DNA of 64,000 nucleotides. Source: Labia minor (taxonomy: Eukaryota; Arthropoda; Insecta; Dermaptera; Spongiphoridae). Under the pieces are notes generated by a model. That model saw only the letters and a program-made list of their open reading frames with translations. It ran no database searches and was not told the origin of the DNA. Position 1 is the first letter of the stretch; every line of letters begins with the position of its first letter. The position numbers were made by a program, and so were the translations under genes. The stretch is taken from contig OY720346.1 in the NCBI GenBank assembly GCA_963082975.1, positions 38,219,787 to 38,283,786 of the forward strand, read 5' to 3'. Of this stretch, positions 21,789-45,509 are shown in pieces.

Positions 21789-23131
21789 TGTATAGTGACG
21801 GACAAAAGAGAATATCAATCTAGCGCAGTGCCTTTCTCATTACCATTAATATATAAATCAAAAGTAAAGAAATTAATTTTTAATACCAATTTAATTTTAA
21901 ATGATTGACAGTTTTGTTTTGGAATATGGTAAAAAATTAAATTTATTTAATTTTTATTCACATATTAATCTTTTTGAGAAAGGCGCTGCGGTAAATTGGT
22001 GTTTTCTTTTTACGTCACACTGGACATAATTACATTTTAGAAATTATTAACACTTTCAATGATTAATACAAAAAATAATATCTTTTTTATCATTATTCGA
22101 TTTCTTTAATTGTAAATAGATTCGTATTAAGGTAATACAAGAAGATTGTAGTAGTATAGTAAGTTTATCCTTTGTCTTGAGATTCAATTTCTAATATCTG
22201 AACAATGATAGGTGTAAGTTAAATTATTGAATGGAAGATAATGAATGCATTGGAAATCGAAGGGCGTATCTATTTAATTGTTCCGAATATTGGGTTTCAT
22301 AGGGATTTTAATTTTTGACAGATGTAATTGAATCGATGAAAAAATACTATCTATACTAATTATATCGTCAAATAAATTAGATAGGGATATTGAATTTTAT
22401 ATTATAGATTATTATTTTTATCAAATTGCAATAGAATTTCTTCGATTGAATAAGTATCTATCATTTATTTCCTCATTTCTTTATGTATTCATATTTTATG
22501 AAAAATTCCTTTATAAAATACGAATTTAATAAAATTAATCTATAGAATATGATTTTTTATTATTATATACCTATTATTCTGAATTGATTTTTCCAATCGA
22601 TTTACTCCTCTCCTCCCCATTTACTCATTGAATCATGCATGTATGCACTTCCTACCCCCTCCACATCTCCCCACGATCATGCAGCGACGAATGTCATGAC
22701 TAGAGATGTTGCAGCTCTGCAACGGACCAGTGGCTACTTTGCATTACATGCACCAGCGATTTGTTTGCCCTTCTATTCTCGTATCCGTCTCTCCCCTCAA
22801 CTTAACCCACCCTCACTTTCCTCCCGTCGTCAATTCTGAAATTATGCATCAAACAACAACACTATTCGATGGAGATGCTGAGGTGATTATATTTACAAAT
22901 TGTTAACAATTCTACATTATTACAATCTACCTTTCAGATTACTCAGATCAATAAGAATAATGATACAAAAAATAAGAATTTTTCTGATATTATTATTTAT
23001 TTTTAGTTATAGTTATTTTGATTAATTTTTTTATTTAAATTGAAATATTATAATTTTTACTTTAAATTTATGTTTTTTTTAAAAAAAATAGACATATGTG
23101 TACAGATTAAATAAAATAAAACTAATATTAT
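21789..23131. other. Spacer with a GC-richer island at 22590-22900
   Basis: The island has ATGCAT motifs and two overlapping short open frames without recognisable similarity. It occurs once in the window. The rest is AT-rich and ends at the LTR element. Confidence 0.45.
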
Positions 23132-23647
23132 TGTGGGAATGGAGCCTTTTGGCTCATCACCGTCCGAATCATCAAAAGCCTGGCACATCTTACTGCCTCA
23201 GGGTCGGCCATTCTCAACCACAATATCGTCGGAGTTGGTGCTTCCTCTCAACGCCGCTCCAAGCAGCGAGCGCCCCAGACGCCGTCGCCGCCCCCCCACC
23301 ATGCGCTACCATCACCGTCGCCGCCATTCTCCCACTCCACGCCACCGACCAATAGAAACCGAGTTCCAGCTGTTTGGACTTCCTTTTAAAAGGGACACCG
23401 GCACGATTCGAGTTTAGTTGTACAGTTTCAGTTTAAGTTTTAGTTTTATAGTTTTTACAGTCGACACTTTACAGTCCTTTGTACATCGCCAGAAGTATTC
23501 AAGAAACGAAGAAGTTACATTTTCATTTATTTTTACACTGTATTTTTATCTTGTTCATCTTTATTCAATAAAACGATATTTTTGCAACCATTTAAACAAA
23601 ACAGATATTTTTTGCTAAACAACCCCTAGACAACGAAATTCCCTACA
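23132..23647 (+). repeat. 5' LTR
   Basis: 516 bp, TG...CA termini. The first 280 bases (U3) are strikingly GC- and CpG-rich for this window. They end with a CCAAT box (23349-23353) and a TATA-like TTTTAAAAGG (23384-23393). An arthropod-type initiator TCAGTT lies at 23428-23433. An AATAAA polyadenylation signal lies at 23567-23572. The start, polyadenylation and U3/R/U5 limits are inferred from these motifs only. Confidence 0.92.
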
Positions 23648-23650
23648 AAT

Positions 23651-23668
23651 TGGAGGCTCAGTCCGTGA
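23651..23668 (+). other. Candidate primer-binding site
   Basis: TGGAGGCTCAGTCCGTGA begins three bases after the 5' LTR. It starts with TGG, as expected for pairing with a tRNA CCA end. It resembles the tRNA-Pro-type site used by some retroelements (TGGGGGCTCGTCCGG). The tRNA assignment is tentative. Confidence 0.5.
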
Positions 23669-23706
23669 TTGAAAACAACTCGTTTATCGTTCGGGCAAAA
23701 GAAGAT

Positions 23707-23960
23707 TCCTAGACTTGTTCACTCTCAAGATTTTATGTGAATAATCTTCAAGAAAAGATACAAGATTCAAGATTCAAGTCTTATTCACTTTCAAGATTTT
23801 TGTGAATAATTCTTACGAAAACGATACAAGATTCAAGATTGAAGATTTATTTACTCTCAAGATTTTTGTGAATAATTGTCAAGGAAAAGATTCAAGATTT
23901 AAAATTGAAAACTTATTCACTTTCAAGATTTTTTTTTGTGAATAATCAGCAAGAAAGAAA
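23707..23960 (+). repeat. Leader tandem repeats
   Basis: About four imperfect copies of a roughly 65-bp unit built on CAAGATTCAAGATT, TTATTCACTTTCAAGATT and TGTGAATAAT. They lie between the primer site and the ORF. They are AT-rich and non-coding, and might act in packaging or translation, but this is a guess. Confidence 0.7.
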
Positions 23961-24008
23961 ATACAAGATTTAATACAGTAAAGATTAAAGAAATAAAAAT
24001 ATATTAAG

Positions 24009-25754
24009 ATGATGAATTTGGTTTTTTTTCCAAAAATCGCAAAAAACATCAATGAGGCCAAACCATATGAACTGAAAGGATTAAAAACGATAATAACGGG
24101 TGACGCAACATGCCGCCTCAGTAGAAAAACCCTACTCAACTTTGAAGGGTTCAACTTTGTTGAAGGTTCTGAGGAATACGAAAAGAAAAATGAAGAATTA
24201 AAGGAAAAACTTACCAGTAAGCAACTACGTCGAACATCTAATATACTCAATCTTCCTGAGCAAGACAGCGACGAACTAATCAGAGGTAACATTCTATCTT
24301 GGTTATGTACACTGGACGAAGATGATGAAGAAGAAGAAAAAGAAGAGACTGATAAGAAAGAATCTAATAAAAAAGAAGAGACTGAAAAGAAAGAATCTAA
24401 TAAAAAAGAAGAGACTGATAAGAAAGAATCTGATAAAAAAGAAGATACTGAAAAGAAAGAATCTGATAAAAAAGAAGATACTGAAAAGAAAGAATCTGAT
24501 AAAAAAGAAGATACTGAAAAGAAAGAATCTGATAAAAAAGAAGATACTGAAAAGAAAGAATCTAATAAAAAAGAAAAAACTCAAAAGAAAGAATCGGAGA
24601 AAATAGAAGAGACTGAAAAGAAAGAATCTATTAAAAAAGAAAAAACTGAAAAGAAAGAATCGGAGAAAATAGAAGAGACTGAGAAGAAAGAATCTAATAA
24701 AAAAGAAAAAACTCAAAAGAAAGAATCGGAGAAAATAGAAGAGACTGATAAGAAAGAATCTGATAAAAAAGAAGAGACTGAAAAGAAAGAATCTAATAAA
24801 AAAGGAGAGATTGAAAAAGAGGAAGTCAAAGAAGAAAAGAATGAAGTTAAAGAATCTCTAACGACTGATAATGAAAAAAAGACCGAAAGTGAAGTTAATG
24901 AAGAGGATAAAGTAAATGACGATGAATCAATGGAAGTTGATAAGGATGAAAGCACTTCAGAAGATCGAAATAAAACAATTCGTGAAGAAGAGATTGATCC
25001 CAATGATAAAATTTTTTATCTTGATGAAACAATGCCTGAAAGTGAAGATGGTGAGAAAGACAGTGAAGAAGATGACGTTACTAATTTAAAATTCGCCTGG
25101 AAAGTTTTAAAATTGGCAAAAGTGATTTATGAAAAACAAGCAAATGAAGGAAATAAAGAAGCAAAATTAAATTTAGCAAATGTCCTTTTAAAATTAGACG
25201 AAATTAAAGAAGAAAGTTTTAAAGATAATGATAAAACACAAACTGCAAGTAAAGTTGAAACTGAAGATAGTGTTTTAAATAAAGAAAATGAAGATTTTAA
25301 TGTGGATTTAAATTTAGAAACAGGCATAAATGATTTATCCAAATCACAAGATATACTATTTTACGTGAAGAAAAAAATCGATAAATATCGAAAAACGAAG
25401 GCGAAGTGGAGAGATAAGGAAAAGAAGATTAACGTATTCGAGGCCGAATACATCGCAGGACGGCCGAATGTGGGAATGGAGCCTTTTGGCTCATCACCGT
25501 CCGAATCATCAAAAGCCTGGCACATCTTACTGCCTCAGGGTCGGCCATTCTCAACCACAATATCGTCGGAGTTGGTGCTTCCTCTCAACGCCGCTCCAAG
25601 CAGCGAGCGCCCCAGACGCCGTCGCCGCCCCCCCACCATGCGCTACCATCACCGTCGCCGCCATTCTCCCACTCCACGCCACCGACCAATAGAAACCGAG
25701 TTCCAGCTGTTTGGACTTCCTTTTAAAAGGGACACCGGCACGATTCGAGTTTAG
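24009..25754 (+). CDS. DEK-like / NASP-like chimeric protein encoded in the LTR element
   Basis: A 581-codon frame that is fully open. Residues about 15-100 resemble the SAP-type region of DEK. The key stretch is FEGFNFVEGSEEYEKKNEEL, against FSGFPFEKGSVQYKKKEEML in human DEK. It is followed by an ILNL...DELIRGNILSWL helix, like DEK's VLDL...SELVKRILNFL. Residues about 108-280 are a K/E-rich tract of 11-residue repeats. Residues about 290-350 are acidic. Residues about 350-400 (DDVTNLKFAWKVLKLAKVIY, then a second helix) resemble the NASP SHNi-TPR start EIGNLELAWDMLDLAKIIF. DEK and NASP are both nuclear chromatin proteins with histone-chaperone activity. Residues 401-486 are unrecognised. The last 95 residues come from the 3' LTR and include an Arg-rich RPRRRRRPP stretch. 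Whether it is made or functional is unknown. The similarities are from memory. Confidence 0.7.
   Translation: MMNLVFFPKIAKNINEAKPYELKGLKTIITGDATCRLSRKTLLNFEGFNFVEGSEEYEKKNEELKEKLTSKQLRRTSNILNLPEQDSDELIRGNILSWLCTLDEDDEEEEKEETDKKESNKKEETEKKESNKKEETDKKESDKKEDTEKKESDKKEDTEKKESDKKEDTEKKESDKKEDTEKKESNKKEKTQKKESEKIEETEKKESIKKEKTEKKESEKIEETEKKESNKKEKTQKKESEKIEETDKKESDKKEETEKKESNKKGEIEKEEVKEEKNEVKESLTTDNEKKTESEVNEEDKVNDDESMEVDKDESTSEDRNKTIREEEIDPNDKIFYLDETMPESEDGEKDSEEDDVTNLKFAWKVLKLAKVIYEKQANEGNKEAKLNLANVLLKLDEIKEESFKDNDKTQTASKVETEDSVLNKENEDFNVDLNLETGINDLSKSQDILFYVKKKIDKYRKTKAKWRDKEKKINVFEAEYIAGRPNVGMEPFGSSPSESSKAWHILLPQGRPFSTTISSELVLPLNAAPSSERPRRRRRPPTMRYHHRRRHSPTPRHRPIETEFQLFGLPFKRDTGTIRV
24337..24810 (+). 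repeat. In-frame 33-bp minisatellite
   Basis: Tandem units encoding an 11-residue EKKESDKKEDT-type repeat, some nearly identical (24424-24556) and others diverged. Because 33 is divisible by three, copy-number change keeps the frame. The opposite strand is also open here, but only as a low-complexity shadow. Confidence 0.9.
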
Positions 25755-25984
25755 TTGTACAGTTTCAGTTTAAGTTTTAGTTTTATAGTTTTTACAGTCG
25801 ACACTTTACAGTCCTTTGTACATCGCCAGAAGTATTCAAGAAACGAAGAAGTTACATTTTCATTTATTTTTACACTGTATTTTTATCTTGTTCATCTTTA
25901 TTCAATAAAACGATATTTTTGCAACCATTTAAACAAAACAGATATTTTTTGCTAAACAACCCCTAGACAACGAAATTCCCTACA
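25469..25984 (+). repeat. 3' LTR
   Basis: Direct repeat of 23132-23647 at an offset of 2337 bp. Its polyadenylation signal AATAAA is at 25904-25909. The internal frame runs into it and stops at 25754, just after the TATA-like sequence. A purine-rich stretch lies at about 25407-25430, but no polypurine tract directly abuts the LTR. Confidence 0.92.
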
Positions 25985-26216
25985 TTATTTAAAATATTTT
26001 TTATTTATATATAATAAAATAAATTAATAAAAAAACTTTTTAATATATACGCTTTTTAATAAAAAATGCCCTAAAAACAGAAAATAAAATATTAATTAAA
26101 CCTTGAATATTATCCTTTACATATGCCCAACAAAAAAGCGTGGACGCATATAAACATAAGTAAAAGGTAAAGAATGAAATATTATTATATGCGCTGATAA
26201 GTGTATATATATATAT

Positions 26217-26640: not shown

Positions 26641-27180
26641 CAGTCAGGCAAAAAAGTGAATTTGATAAAAAGCATATAATTATTTTAAATTAGTTGTATT
26701 TTATATTTTTTTGTTTTAAAAAGTAAATATAATGTTAGATTAATATAACGTTAGATTCTAAATAACCGTGATTATTAGGATCTATGCAGTATATATTCAG
26801 TCATGTGCTTTTATTTATTTATTTGCATATCACCTATTATTGTTATTTGTTTGTTTGCAATGCTATATTCAAGCTGATATGTTTGTTTATTAATTCAACC
26901 AAATTAATTAATATTTATATTTGTGTTCTAGATTTTATTATTTCAAATCCATACTTTATTAGTTCAACCTAATCAGTAGAGATTGATATATGTATACGTA
27001 TATTGTAATCAGCATATATTACATAAATTTTATTAATTTATTATGATTTTAATAATTTGTTTCAAAATTATTTTTTCGTAATTATAAATATGTAATAAAT
27101 AAAATAAAAAAATATATTTTACATATTCTAAATTTATTTTAAAATTAAATGTAAATATATAAATATAATTAATAAATTCA

Positions 27181-27918
27181 TTTTGAAGTGAAACTTCTTT
27201 AGCGGCGTCCTGACATTTGGTTGAGAATGGAGAGTGAATTGAAAAATTGAAATTTCGTAACGCGTTACGAAACGCAAGAGAGAAAAAAGATATAGATATA
27301 ACGAGTGAGAATGAGATAGCCTCTATCTCTGTCTCTCTTTTGTGCGGTGTTTCGTTTTTGAGAGAGAGGCTATCTGGGTCTTTCTTTTGTCCGGTCTTTC
27401 GTCTTTGAGAAAGAGGCTATCTGCGTCTTCGTTTTATGCTGTCTTTCGTTCTAATACCCTGTCGCTAGGTTGAAAGTCCACGGCGCGCATGCGCACTAGT
27501 ACGTTGACGCGGAATAATATTTCTTAGCCTCTGCTGGGTGAAAGAATAAAAATTAGTATGTGACCTCACAGTTACCGCCTTTTAGATATATATCTATTCT
27601 TAAAATAAAATTAAAAATATTTATATTATATTCATATATATGTAAAATAATAATTATATTATTTTTTAATATTAAAAAATATTTAATTTGAGATTAATTA
27701 TATGTAAAAAGATCAACTATCAAATAGATTCAAACTTTTATATTCTTTGATTAGATTATAATTAAATATTATTTATATTATTTAAAAATTATTATTTTTC
27801 TATTTATTAAGGATGTCTATTAAAAAATTGTAATTAACCTTATCATATGTCAAATATTATAGCTAAGTTTTTTTGAATTTTTTAAAATTTTTTATATAAT
27901 TAATCTCAAATTAAATAT
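27181..27918 (+). repeat. Repeat family E, copy 1 (palindrome-bearing)
   Basis: First of two tandem copies. It starts TTTTGAAGTGAAACTTC, whose GAAGT-GAA-ACTTC is a small hairpin. It has a perfect 20-bp palindrome TTTCGTAACGCGTTACGAAA (27253-27272) and a hairpin GAGATAG-CCT-CTATCTC. Two to three degenerate units of about 50 bp contain GAGGCTATCTG. GCGCATGCGC (27485-27494) is the core of an NRF1-type site. The right half is AT-rich. The GAAGTGAAACTTC end matches GGAAGTGAAACTTCTTA beside the endonuclease fragment at 30940-30957, which hints at a Helentron-related element. No coding frame is recognised. Confidence 0.65.
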
Positions 27919-28574
27919 TTTTGAAGTGAAACTTCTTTAGCGGCGTCCTGACATTTGGTTGAGAATGGAGAGTGAATTGAAAAATTGAAATTTCGTAACG
28001 CGTTACGAAACGCAAGAGAGAAAAAAGATATAGATATAACGAGTGAGAATGAGATAGCCTCTATCTCCGACTCTCTTTTGTGCGGTGTTTCGTTTTTGAG
28101 AGAGAGGCTATCTGGGTCTTTCTTTTGTCCGGTCTTTCGTCTTTGAGAAAGAGGCTATCTGCCTCTTCGTTTTGTGCTGTCTTTCGTTCTACTACGCTCT
28201 CGCTAGGTCTAAAGTCCACGGCGCGCATGCGCGGTAGTACGTTGACGCGGAATAATATTTCTCAGCTTCTACTGGGTCAAAGAATAAAAATTAGTATGAC
28301 TTATGATCAAAAGAGGGCGAGATCTCCACCTTGTCCAGTAGATATCGCAATTAAATACAATTTGAATTTAAATATATATTAATTTCAAAATTTGCCTAAA
28401 CATTTATAAAAATAAATATACATATGAAATTTGTTATTTTTTTTTAATATTAAAAAATATTTAATTTGAGATTAATTATATGTAAAAAGATCAACTATCA
28501 AATAGATTCAAACTTTTATTTTCTTTGATTAGATTATAATTAAATATTATTTATATTATTTAAAAATTATTATT
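27919..28574 (+). repeat. Repeat family E, copy 2
   Basis: Tandem copy offset by 738 bp, with the palindrome at 27991-28010 and the NRF1-like core at 28223-28232. It diverges from copy 1 for about 150 bp after 28298 (GACTTATGATCAAAAGAGGG) and then rejoins it at TTTAATTTGAGATTAATT. A 100-codon frame crosses it but shows no similarity I know. Confidence 0.65.
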
Positions 28575-30160: not shown

Positions 30161-30397
30161 TATATATCGTGAAATAATTAAAATTCTCAAGTCAAATATA
30201 CAGCGTGCACGCATACCGACGCATGTAATTGTGTGTGTGAACATGGTCGGCGATTCACACGCCAACACATACAGTTATGTGCGTCGATGACCATTCACGT
30301 TATTTATCCGAATCTCAACATTACTTTAACACTACTAAATCAATTTAAAATTATTATTGCATTTAAAACTGCTTTTCTCTACTCCACAGATTTCACT

Positions 30398-30802
30398 ATG
30401 CCGAAAAAAAATAACGACCAAAATTTAGACGATATTATTTATTTCATACACCTTTCACTACTGGTTTATAGCCACACAGGTGCTAATGCACTTGAACGAG
30501 GCGAAGATAAAATCCCTCTAATTCTCGGGGGAGATTTTAATGTAAATTTTGGATCTGATGATTCGTTGCCGTTGATCAACTTTCTTCGAGAAACATTTGG
30601 TCTGCTTATAAATAACGATCCCAAGGAATCAACAACAAAATCTGGAACTACAATAGATGCTGTTTTTACACGTTATATAGAAAATATCGAATCACGAACA
30701 TATATATCTTATTTTAGTTATCACAAGCCATTAATATCAGTATTACCAATTGAAGCACCAACCGACAATAGTACAGGCAATGTAGATATGATGATAGAGT
30801 AG
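30398..30802 (+). pseudogene. Helentron-type endonuclease fragment, copy 1
   Basis: The open frame extends upstream to 30233, but coding similarity begins near the ATG at 30398. It has the C-terminal part of an endonuclease/exonuclease/phosphatase domain: LGGDFNVNF (GDFN motif), GTTIDAVFTR (SxID-type motif) and SYFSYHKPL (in place of the family's SDHxP). The N-terminal catalytic QxxE part is missing, so it is truncated. This variant (SYHKP, IDAVFTRY) is what I recall from endonucleases fused to Helentron Rep-helicase proteins. TTTCTCTACTCCACAG just upstream looks like a 3' splice site, so this could be a terminal exon remnant. The frame ends TAG, followed by a (TAA)n run. Confidence 0.6.
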
Positions 30803-31908: not shown

Positions 31909-32145
31909 TATATATCGTGAAATAATTAAAATTCTCAAGTCAAATATACAGCGTGCACGCATACCGACGCATGTAATTGTGTGTGTGAACATGGTCGGCG
32001 ATTCACACGCCAACACATACAGTTATGTGCGTCGATGACCATTCACGTTATTTATCCGAATCTCAACATTACTTTAACACTACTAAATCAATTTAAAATT
32101 ATTATTGCATTTAAAACTGCTTTTCTCTACTCCACAGATTTCACT

Positions 32146-32550
32146 ATGCCGAAAAAAAATAACGACCAAAATTTAGACGATATTATTTATTTCATACACC
32201 GTTCACTACTGGTTTATAGCCACACAGGTGCTAATGCACTTGAACGAGGCGAAGATAAAATCCCTCTAATTCTCGGGGGAGATTTTAATGTAAATTTTGG
32301 ATCTGATGATTCGTTGCCGTTGATCAACTTTCTTCGAGAAACATTTGGTCTGCTTATAAATAACGATCCCAAGGAATCAACAACAAAATCTGGAACTACA
32401 ATAGATGCTGTTTTTACACGTTATATAGAAAATATCGAATCACGAACATATATATCTTATTTTAGTTATCACAAGCCATTAATATCAGTATTACCAATTG
32501 AAGCACCAACCGACAATAGTACAGGCAATGTAGATATGATGATAGAGTAG
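32146..32550 (+). pseudogene. Helentron-type endonuclease fragment, copy 2
   Basis: Near-identical to 30398-30802, with one amino-acid change (FIHRSLL against FIHLSLL). The GDFN, IDAVFTR and SYHKP motifs and the stop are the same, and it lacks the same N-terminal half. The enclosing open frame begins at 31981. Similarity beyond the duplicated block ends near 32681. Confidence 0.6.
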
Positions 32551-44614: not shown

Positions 44615-45509
44615 CGGAGTGTGTTCAAAAAGTAAGATGACTTTGTATTTTTAAGAAAAAATATTTATTTATTTATCAATATTTATGTTTTCCCCTTCAA
44701 AGTAATCCCCCTTAGATACAATACACTTATGCCAACGGTTTTTCCAATCCTCAAAGCACTTCTCATAAGCACTTTTCGGTATAGCCTTGAGCTCTTTATC
44801 TTTATCTCCTCAATCGTTGCAAATCTCCGTCCCTTTAGTTTTGGGAACAAGAAAAAGTCACATGGGGCCAAATCCGGTGAATATGGTGGCTGAGGCATGA
44901 TTGTGGTGTTGTTTTTGGCCAAAAAATCTCTCACAAGCAAAGATGAGTAAGCAGGGGCATTATCGTGATGCAAAAGCCATGAATTGTTTTTCCACAATTC
45001 TAGACGTTTTCTTCGTATTGCTTCTCGCAAACGGCGCATAACTTCAAAATAATACTGTTTATTGACCGTACGACCATATGGTAAGAACTCCTGATGCACC
45101 ACGCCATGGTAATCGAAGAAAACAGTGAGCAAAACTTTGACATTTGATCGAACTAGGCGTGCTTTTTTCGGTCTTGGCTCACCTGGGCTCTTCCATTGGG
45201 AACATTTTTTTTTACTCAGAACAGTTTCACCGTATGCCACTGTCAACATTTAAAGTGCTTCGGAGCACTTTATTTTATTTTTTACACAAAATTTGATGCA
45301 AATCCTTTGATCCATATTTTACTATAGCAAAATATCCTCGACCACGTAAAACACTTATAACCTTTACGCATCTCACAACCAAACAAAAAATGCGATACAC
45401 TTGAAACTTGGTACTTCGGGAAGACTGTACCAACATAACAAATCAAAAAAATTGATAATCTAAATTGCTCGCGAAATTTGAAGTCACTTTATTTTTCGAA
45501 CACACCTCT
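44615..45509 (-). mobile_element. Mariner element with both TIRs, internally deleted
   Basis: 895 bp flanked by TA. The TIRs are GGAGTGTGTTCAAAAAGTAA and, read from the other end, GAGGTGTGTTCGAAAAATAA. A full mariner is about 1.3 kb, so roughly a third is missing, mainly the transposase N-terminus. Confidence 0.88.
44683..45249 (-). pseudogene. Mariner transposase, C-terminal part
   Basis: 188 codons covering about the last 55% of an irritans-type mariner transposase. Visible blocks are SQWKSPGEPRPKKAR, LLTVFFDYHGVVHQEFLP, WLLHHDNAPAY (second catalytic Asp) and YSPDLAPCDFFLFPKL (third catalytic Asp). The second and third Asp are spaced D34D. The N-terminal helix-turn-helix region and the first catalytic Asp (GDETW) are absent. 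A few residues seem deleted after FPKLK (family FPKLKRPMKGRRF). It cannot encode an active transposase. Confidence 0.88.

Follow-up and report, generated by a model that had tools for sequence, protein, structure and literature searches.

The only frame of a short LTR element in the window (the whole stretch of 64,000 nucleotides that was analysed, G000:C4:38219787-38283786) joins a DEK-like Gag domain of a Ty3-type retrotransposon family to a piece of the host's own NASP gene. Set side by side, its relatives establish at the level of sequence that the element is a member of this LTR family carrying none of the family's enzymes, that the parent Gag-Pol frame of 1398 aa starts with the same DEK-like domain, and that in one branch everything from reverse transcriptase (RT) onward has been replaced by the NASP piece, comprising the acidic tract and first SHNi-TPR helices, and by a tail. 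We regard this account of anatomy and origin as very likely. The whole explanation that we prefer, running from the parent through the NASP replacement and the short form to a partner in trans and a fusion protein that aids its own element, we would place only a little above even.

First, the anatomy of the element (23132-25984) is that of an LTR retrotransposon, with paired LTRs, TG..CA ends, a short target-site duplication (TSD) and one frame, and the earlier note was right to describe an LTR element with a target duplication. The 5′ LTR (23132..23647, plus strand, TGTGGG...CCTACA) and the 3′ LTR (25469..25984) are 516 bp each and 100% identical, and they are bounded by TTAT on the left (23128..23131) and on the right (25985..25988). 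Between them, a 361-bp leader (23648..24008, plus strand), which holds a primer-site candidate and a 66-bp tandem repeat at about 23718-23933, precedes a single ATG frame of 581 aa (24009..25754, plus strand) that crosses the junction into the 3′ LTR (window 25440-25469) and reaches its stop codon 286 nt into it. By eye, the bases just before 25469 contain no polypurine tract directly before the 3′ LTR, and purines predominate in a stretch about 45 nt upstream of the LTR start. Along the frame, all on the plus strand, follow the DEK-like pseudo-SAP/SAP head (residues 14-99, 24048..24305); a K/E-rich charged tract (residues 103-329, 24315..24995), most of which resembles the acidic region of host NASP and which includes a 33-bp repeat array at about 24337-24817; the SHNi-TPR helix NLKFAWKVLKLAKVIYEKQ (residues 359-377, 25083..25139); and the tail (25221..25466), part of which is common to the C-termini of another Gag clade and which is not found in the Gag-Pol parent. 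The segment matching the host NASP gene in DNA spans 24328..25205. Pfam found no retroelement enzymes in the frame and 0 families in the whole 581-aa product; submitted as two parts, the frame gave matches below the curated cut-offs only, one of them TPR_19 at E=0.12.

The window also contains other repeats and frames. Downstream of the element, two pairs of direct repeats lie within 27171-28574, one of 300 nt at 96% identity and one of 171 nt at 91%, spaced 738 and 778 nt, and two near-identical 206-aa frames with an endonuclease-type look by eye lie 1.7 kb apart at 30182-30802 and 31930-32550. On the minus strand, 44683-45249 carries a 188-aa frame, which by its motif looks like a mariner-type transposase remnant.

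Second, the similarity of the head to the DEK pseudo-SAP/SAP region, as judged by sequence comparison, is real but weak, and it is specific. Searched against the PDB by phmmer, the first ~100 residues matched DEK (2jx3, E=1.9e-4); the top three matches were all DEK, and the next, a non-DEK protein, came at E=0.17. A three-sequence head profile matched DEK at E=1.1e-4, and hhalign gave 92% probability for the head against human and host DEK. Smith-Waterman scores were 87 against human and 70 against host DEK, and none of 2000 shuffles each reached the real score (best 57 and 66, respectively). The AlphaFold single-sequence model of the head (pLDDT 42) was unusable, and Pfam found no match to the DEK C-terminal domain (PF08766) in the frame. 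Protein identity between the head and host DEK is ~26%, against 41% between the DEK proteins of host and human. Searching the genome with the human DEK segment yielded 123 matches with E values of 1 or below, from 150 scored candidates out of 175; the best listed is the exon of host DEK itself (C1:104778193), and the DEK_C exon lies ~750 bp further on. Of these rows, 104 could be placed: 76 beside the NASP of the window family, 6 in Gag-Pol frames and 22 with an other-clade capsid. The best listed element match to human DEK (E 6.5e-6) is a 783-aa Gag-like frame at G000:C4:50813422, and a DEK-like stretch containing a stop was seen at C10:52491000. Host regions picked by their DEK_C domain as candidate sources of the head gave no tblastn match to the element frame. 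One of them (L036) contains the DEK exon that the human segment later found; tblastn missed it because the head is too diverged from host DEK for this method. No recent host source for the head was found.

Where, then, does the head come from? In six Gag-Pol copies a single frame of 1398-1399 aa encodes head, capsid and RT, and the RT segment is 100% identical in all six. One copy read in pieces (L055) runs in a single frame from the head to the start of RT, with a protease between Gag and RT (by eye, in this one of the six). Pfam recognised the RT in L056, which is closest to Ty3 (4ol8, E=2e-51), and Gag, zinc knuckle and aspartyl protease in L051. By these alignments the parent family's Gag begins with this head as its N-terminal domain. 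The earlier note had read the frame as two host transcripts captured by one element, and this part of its reading falls. Both similarities are real, as independent captures of host DEK and host NASP would require, but the head forms the start of Gag in the parent and also in divergent clades, an uninterrupted head-Gag-PR-RT frame contradicts a separate capture, and the head stands at ~26% to host DEK (protein) against 93% for the NASP core (nucleotides); we consider a double capture highly improbable. The note had also named the same ORF serving as an ordinary gag in related elements as an outcome that would speak against it, and this holds for the head and not for the NASP half.

The tables of DEK, capsid and NASP matches, paired by place for all 80 NASP rows, place the head's later partners in sequence. 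At 58 of the 59 short places, head and NASP share one frame (370-619 aa); at 12 of the 17 long places, head, capsid and NASP do; among the remaining rows, three belong to another Gag clade and one is the host gene. The long form is exemplified by L051, whose single 1123-aa frame comprises head, acidic linker, capsid, knuckles, protease, NASP and tail between the same LTRs, and L050 has the same order in a broken frame. As no Gag-Pol frame turns up in the NASP or tail tables, whose candidates were scored in full, NASP and tail occupy the place of RT onward. The order of steps can be read from INTERMEDIATES, the L051-type head-capsid-protease-NASP frames of up to 1123 aa: a second deletion, from capsid to protease, would have turned the long form into the short one. 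Short DEK-NASP frames lacking the capsid are the most numerous form among those found, exceeding the Gag-Pol form by about ten to one (59 to 6 in the tables examined).

With no enzymes, and with an LTR and leader in common with an autonomous copy, the window element is non-autonomous. The evidence on its putative partner, for which one copy was sampled, covers 68 nt of LTR, 32 nt of leader start and 207 nt of leader. Over the final 68 nt of the LTR and the 32 nt that open the leader, the window element and the Gag-Pol copy (L057) do not differ, so that the stretch adjoining the LTR, with the primer-site candidate, is the same in one Gag-Pol copy; 207 nt of the leader of this copy (L055) are 96% identical to the window. 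Given the shared LTR end and leader, the sampled Gag-Pol copy appears to be the natural partner in trans. Such copies would supply capsid, RT and integrase, which would act on the shared LTR, primer site and leader.

Third, the NASP piece can be traced to its source. Residues 350-404 match NASP in the PDB (7v1k, E=1e-5), and together with the 2jx3 match of the head (E=1.9e-4) this bears out the junction of DEK-like and NASP-like parts that had been noticed by eye. The profile searches proposed for the two halves fail formally, Pfam staying below its cut-offs and the SHNi-TPR model matching a single gene in the genome, host NASP (C1:91120670), and nothing in the element frame. The DNA match to the host gene nevertheless settles the identity of the piece: the element is 79% identical to host NASP overall and 84% in 24540-25205, and a 109-codon core reaches 93% nucleotide identity (dN 0.066, dS 0.092). 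On these figures the NASP part is a capture from the host gene, as had been proposed. Loss of introns is unusable as a test of the capture, since the host NASP frame is itself open over 707 codons without interruption. The DNA alignment covers the charged tract through the first TPR helices, and close similarity ends after KL(G/D)EI. Matches to host NASP begin downstream of TPR1 and stop short of TPR4; the element lacks TPR4 and the capping helix and does not show the full architecture of four TPRs, an acidic interruption and a capping helix. The 33-bp repeat array seems to have arisen by expansion of a K/E-rich tract that host NASP already contains.

The joining of these parts may have a longer history, as suggested by a second Gag clade. 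Among 150 capsid rows, 38 with a capsid identity of 33-38% were paired, leaving aside the window clade, a 52-59% group, the 750- and 833-aa groups and others; capsid and tail lie in one frame in 26 of the 38, and head, capsid and tail in 15. A DEK-like head precedes the capsid in other Gag clades that are 33-38% identical in capsid. Frames of the other Gag clade lie at C1:115719587, C2:14951889 and C9:40526734. Of the 113 rows found with the tail query, 36 belong to elements other than the window clade; they show 50-89% identity, in most cases 68-85%, across 23-67 residues, so that tail identity between the clades exceeds capsid identity. Three elements outside the window clade also carry NASP-like sequence, 58-64% identical to the window and 59-60% to host NASP. 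A tail common to two old Gag clades, plus NASP in three cases, suggests exchange between them, and the recent NASP core of the window clade may be a refreshed copy, which we offer as a lead. Taken together, these observations permit a broader reading, which we find rather doubtful: a Ty3-type lineage with an old, DEK-derived, chromatin-binding Gag head would have taken up NASP more than once, so that another clade would retain an old NASP (~60% to the host protein), and the recent one (93%) would be attached where the old NASP already met the tail; recombination with the host gene may have renewed the captured module, and the fusion would be a chromatin effector favouring its own copies.

Fourth, the element has multiplied recently. 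The search for other copies that the earlier note had called for, across 604 Mb of genome, returned at least 57 matches to the window element (40 of 303 candidates scored), and 28 near-full-length copies among the listed matches (L001-L008, L012-L031) were read. Every one has an open frame of 550-594 aa. The LTR pairs are identical in 27 (that of L006 differs at one base), which indicates that the copies are young, and an exact 4-bp TSD flanks 27 (the exception, L021, has a shortened LTR match); the 28 look like recent, independent retrotransposition events. TATA accounts for 17 of the 27 exact TSDs and for 1.9% of window positions, and insertions at these loci strongly prefer TA runs. At L040 (C5:65614000-65623999), four copies of the 514-aa class stand in tandem, their LTRs shared head to tail. 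A search for the TTAGG telomere pattern, by a scan that passes over simple repeats, gave 0 matches.

Is the frame maintained by selection, or is it open simply because the copies are young? The evidence from sequence variation is mixed. All eight indels in the ORF are multiples of three, compared with one of 18 in LTR and leader (Fisher 6e-6); five of the eight are 33- or 66-bp repeat units, without which the contrast stands at 0.003. The 111 variable ORF sites include no nonsense change, an outcome with a chance of about 0.003; most of these sites fall in the repeats, and for the 42 changes in the DEK and NASP/tail parts the chance is about 0.13. In the head, the window differs from the parent Gag of L055 by dN 0.05 and dS 0.21 and from L051 by dN 0.08 and dS 0.19, whereas constraint is not apparent between L051 and L055 (dN 0.054, dS 0.047) or between the window and L003 (0.016 and 0.016) or L031 (0.020 and 0.031); the NASP core compared with the host gene (0.066 and 0.092) likewise counts against selection. 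Among the 28 copies, the DEK part shows 4 synonymous and 9 replacement changes, close to a neutral mix, and the NASP part with tail, counted in 27 copies with one of differing length left out, shows 10 and 19, again near neutral. It is quite possible, though short of probable, that the frame is a passenger: a handful of recent source copies would have happened to be open, the copies would have had too little time to decay, and the protein would be inert. The 27 identical LTR pairs, the near-neutral ratio among copies and the head comparisons with dN about equal to dS all fit this. Yet the copies do diverge, at 111 ORF sites without a single nonsense change, and their ORF indels keep the frame while those of LTR and leader mostly do not. 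Both domains are retained in one frame at 58 of 59 short places, and the long head-capsid-NASP form (12 of 17) and the second Gag clade likewise retain long frames that end in the same tail.

If the fusion protein is made and serves its own element, it would more plausibly act through nucleic acid or chromatin than as a histone chaperone. Of nine DEK positions reported to touch nucleosomal DNA (PMC12263440), six are basic in the window, and R116, R153 and R168 are replaced by G, T and E. The histone-binding region of DEK (human 52-68) has no counterpart, only 13 residues preceding the head. For human NASP, it is reported that helix alpha4 (E177, W180, D181, D184) binds H3 alphaN, that alanine at E177/W180/D181 abolishes this binding, that the H3 alpha3 groove requires TPR3, TPR4 and the capping helix, and that the acidic region is dispensable for H3-H4 and reported needed for H1 (PMC9122598). 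Host NASP has E at both the D181 and D184 positions. Among 42 element helices found, K occupies D181 in 35 and D184 in 41 (K,K in 34, E,K in 7 and K,E in one), and W180 is present in all 42, also with a search pattern that does not require W; one element locus, L047, lacks a match to the helix pattern. With the acidic H3 contacts lost and TPR4 missing, canonical chaperoning is unlikely, and the NASP piece has probably ceased to act as a chaperone of H3-H4.

These changes weaken the suggestion of the earlier note that the product might bind histones, and they bear on the idea of a working chaperone, or a decoy that loosens silencing at the element. A DEK-like head, a NASP-derived acidic tract and a helix that keeps W180 in all those found are what such a protein might display, but lysine replaces both D181 and D184 in 34 of the 42 helices, where alanine at E177/W180/D181 is enough to end H3 alphaN binding in human NASP (PMC9122598). 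Absent, too, are TPR4 and the capping helix, both needed for the H3 alpha3 groove; the head leaves no room before it for the DEK histone-binding region, and no DEK_C is matched; we judge this idea clearly unlikely. We favour instead, tentatively and at well under even confidence, a nucleic-acid- or chromatin-binding accessory protein that is not a canonical H3-H4 chaperone. Its DEK-like head would bind nucleic acid or chromatin to the benefit of its own element, and the NASP piece would form a long charged arm that possibly contacts linker histone. Such a function in cis is directly testable, as the short form is the commoner one although capsid and protease are lost and the two chromatin-related parts are kept.

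Finally, a family of selfish DNA has here built and spread a chromatin-protein fusion, and a Gag that starts with a DEK-like domain would give a retroelement a simple route to chromatin. With parent, intermediates and end product in one genome, the steps that led from Gag-Pol to the fusion can be followed and put to the test. How does the element compare with known systems? It resembles Ty3-type elements (Metaviridae) in its LTRs and 4-bp TSD, and its parent does so in Gag capsid and RT and, in those parts that were read, in zinc knuckle and aspartyl protease; it differs in that the parent Gag begins with a DEK-like domain and the window copy has no retroelement enzyme. Open-licence PMC titles and abstract starts yielded no precedent for a DEK, SAP or NASP domain in a retroelement Gag. 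The two halves resemble the DEK SAP region (2jx3) and NASP SHNi-TPR (7v1k) in sequence; unlike DEK, the element has no C-terminal domain and no histone-binding region, and unlike NASP, its piece is truncated and changed at the H3 contacts. LARDs and TRIMs are non-autonomous LTR elements, with which it shares LTRs, primer region and the leader of an autonomous relative, along with the lack of RT or integrase; it departs from them in retaining an open frame in which a Gag domain is linked to part of a host gene. Maize Bs1 is a gene-capturing element, and gene capture by LTR elements has usually been seen as isolated fragments. Capture by mobile elements is also reported for Pack-TYPE elements (PMC8903248) and Turmoil-1 (PMC2572040). 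In all of these, as in the window, a mobile element carries and multiplies a fragment of a host gene; what sets the present case apart from them is that the carrier is an LTR retrotransposon, that the fragment is fused in frame to the element's own Gag head, and that the parent and the intermediates persist in the same genome.
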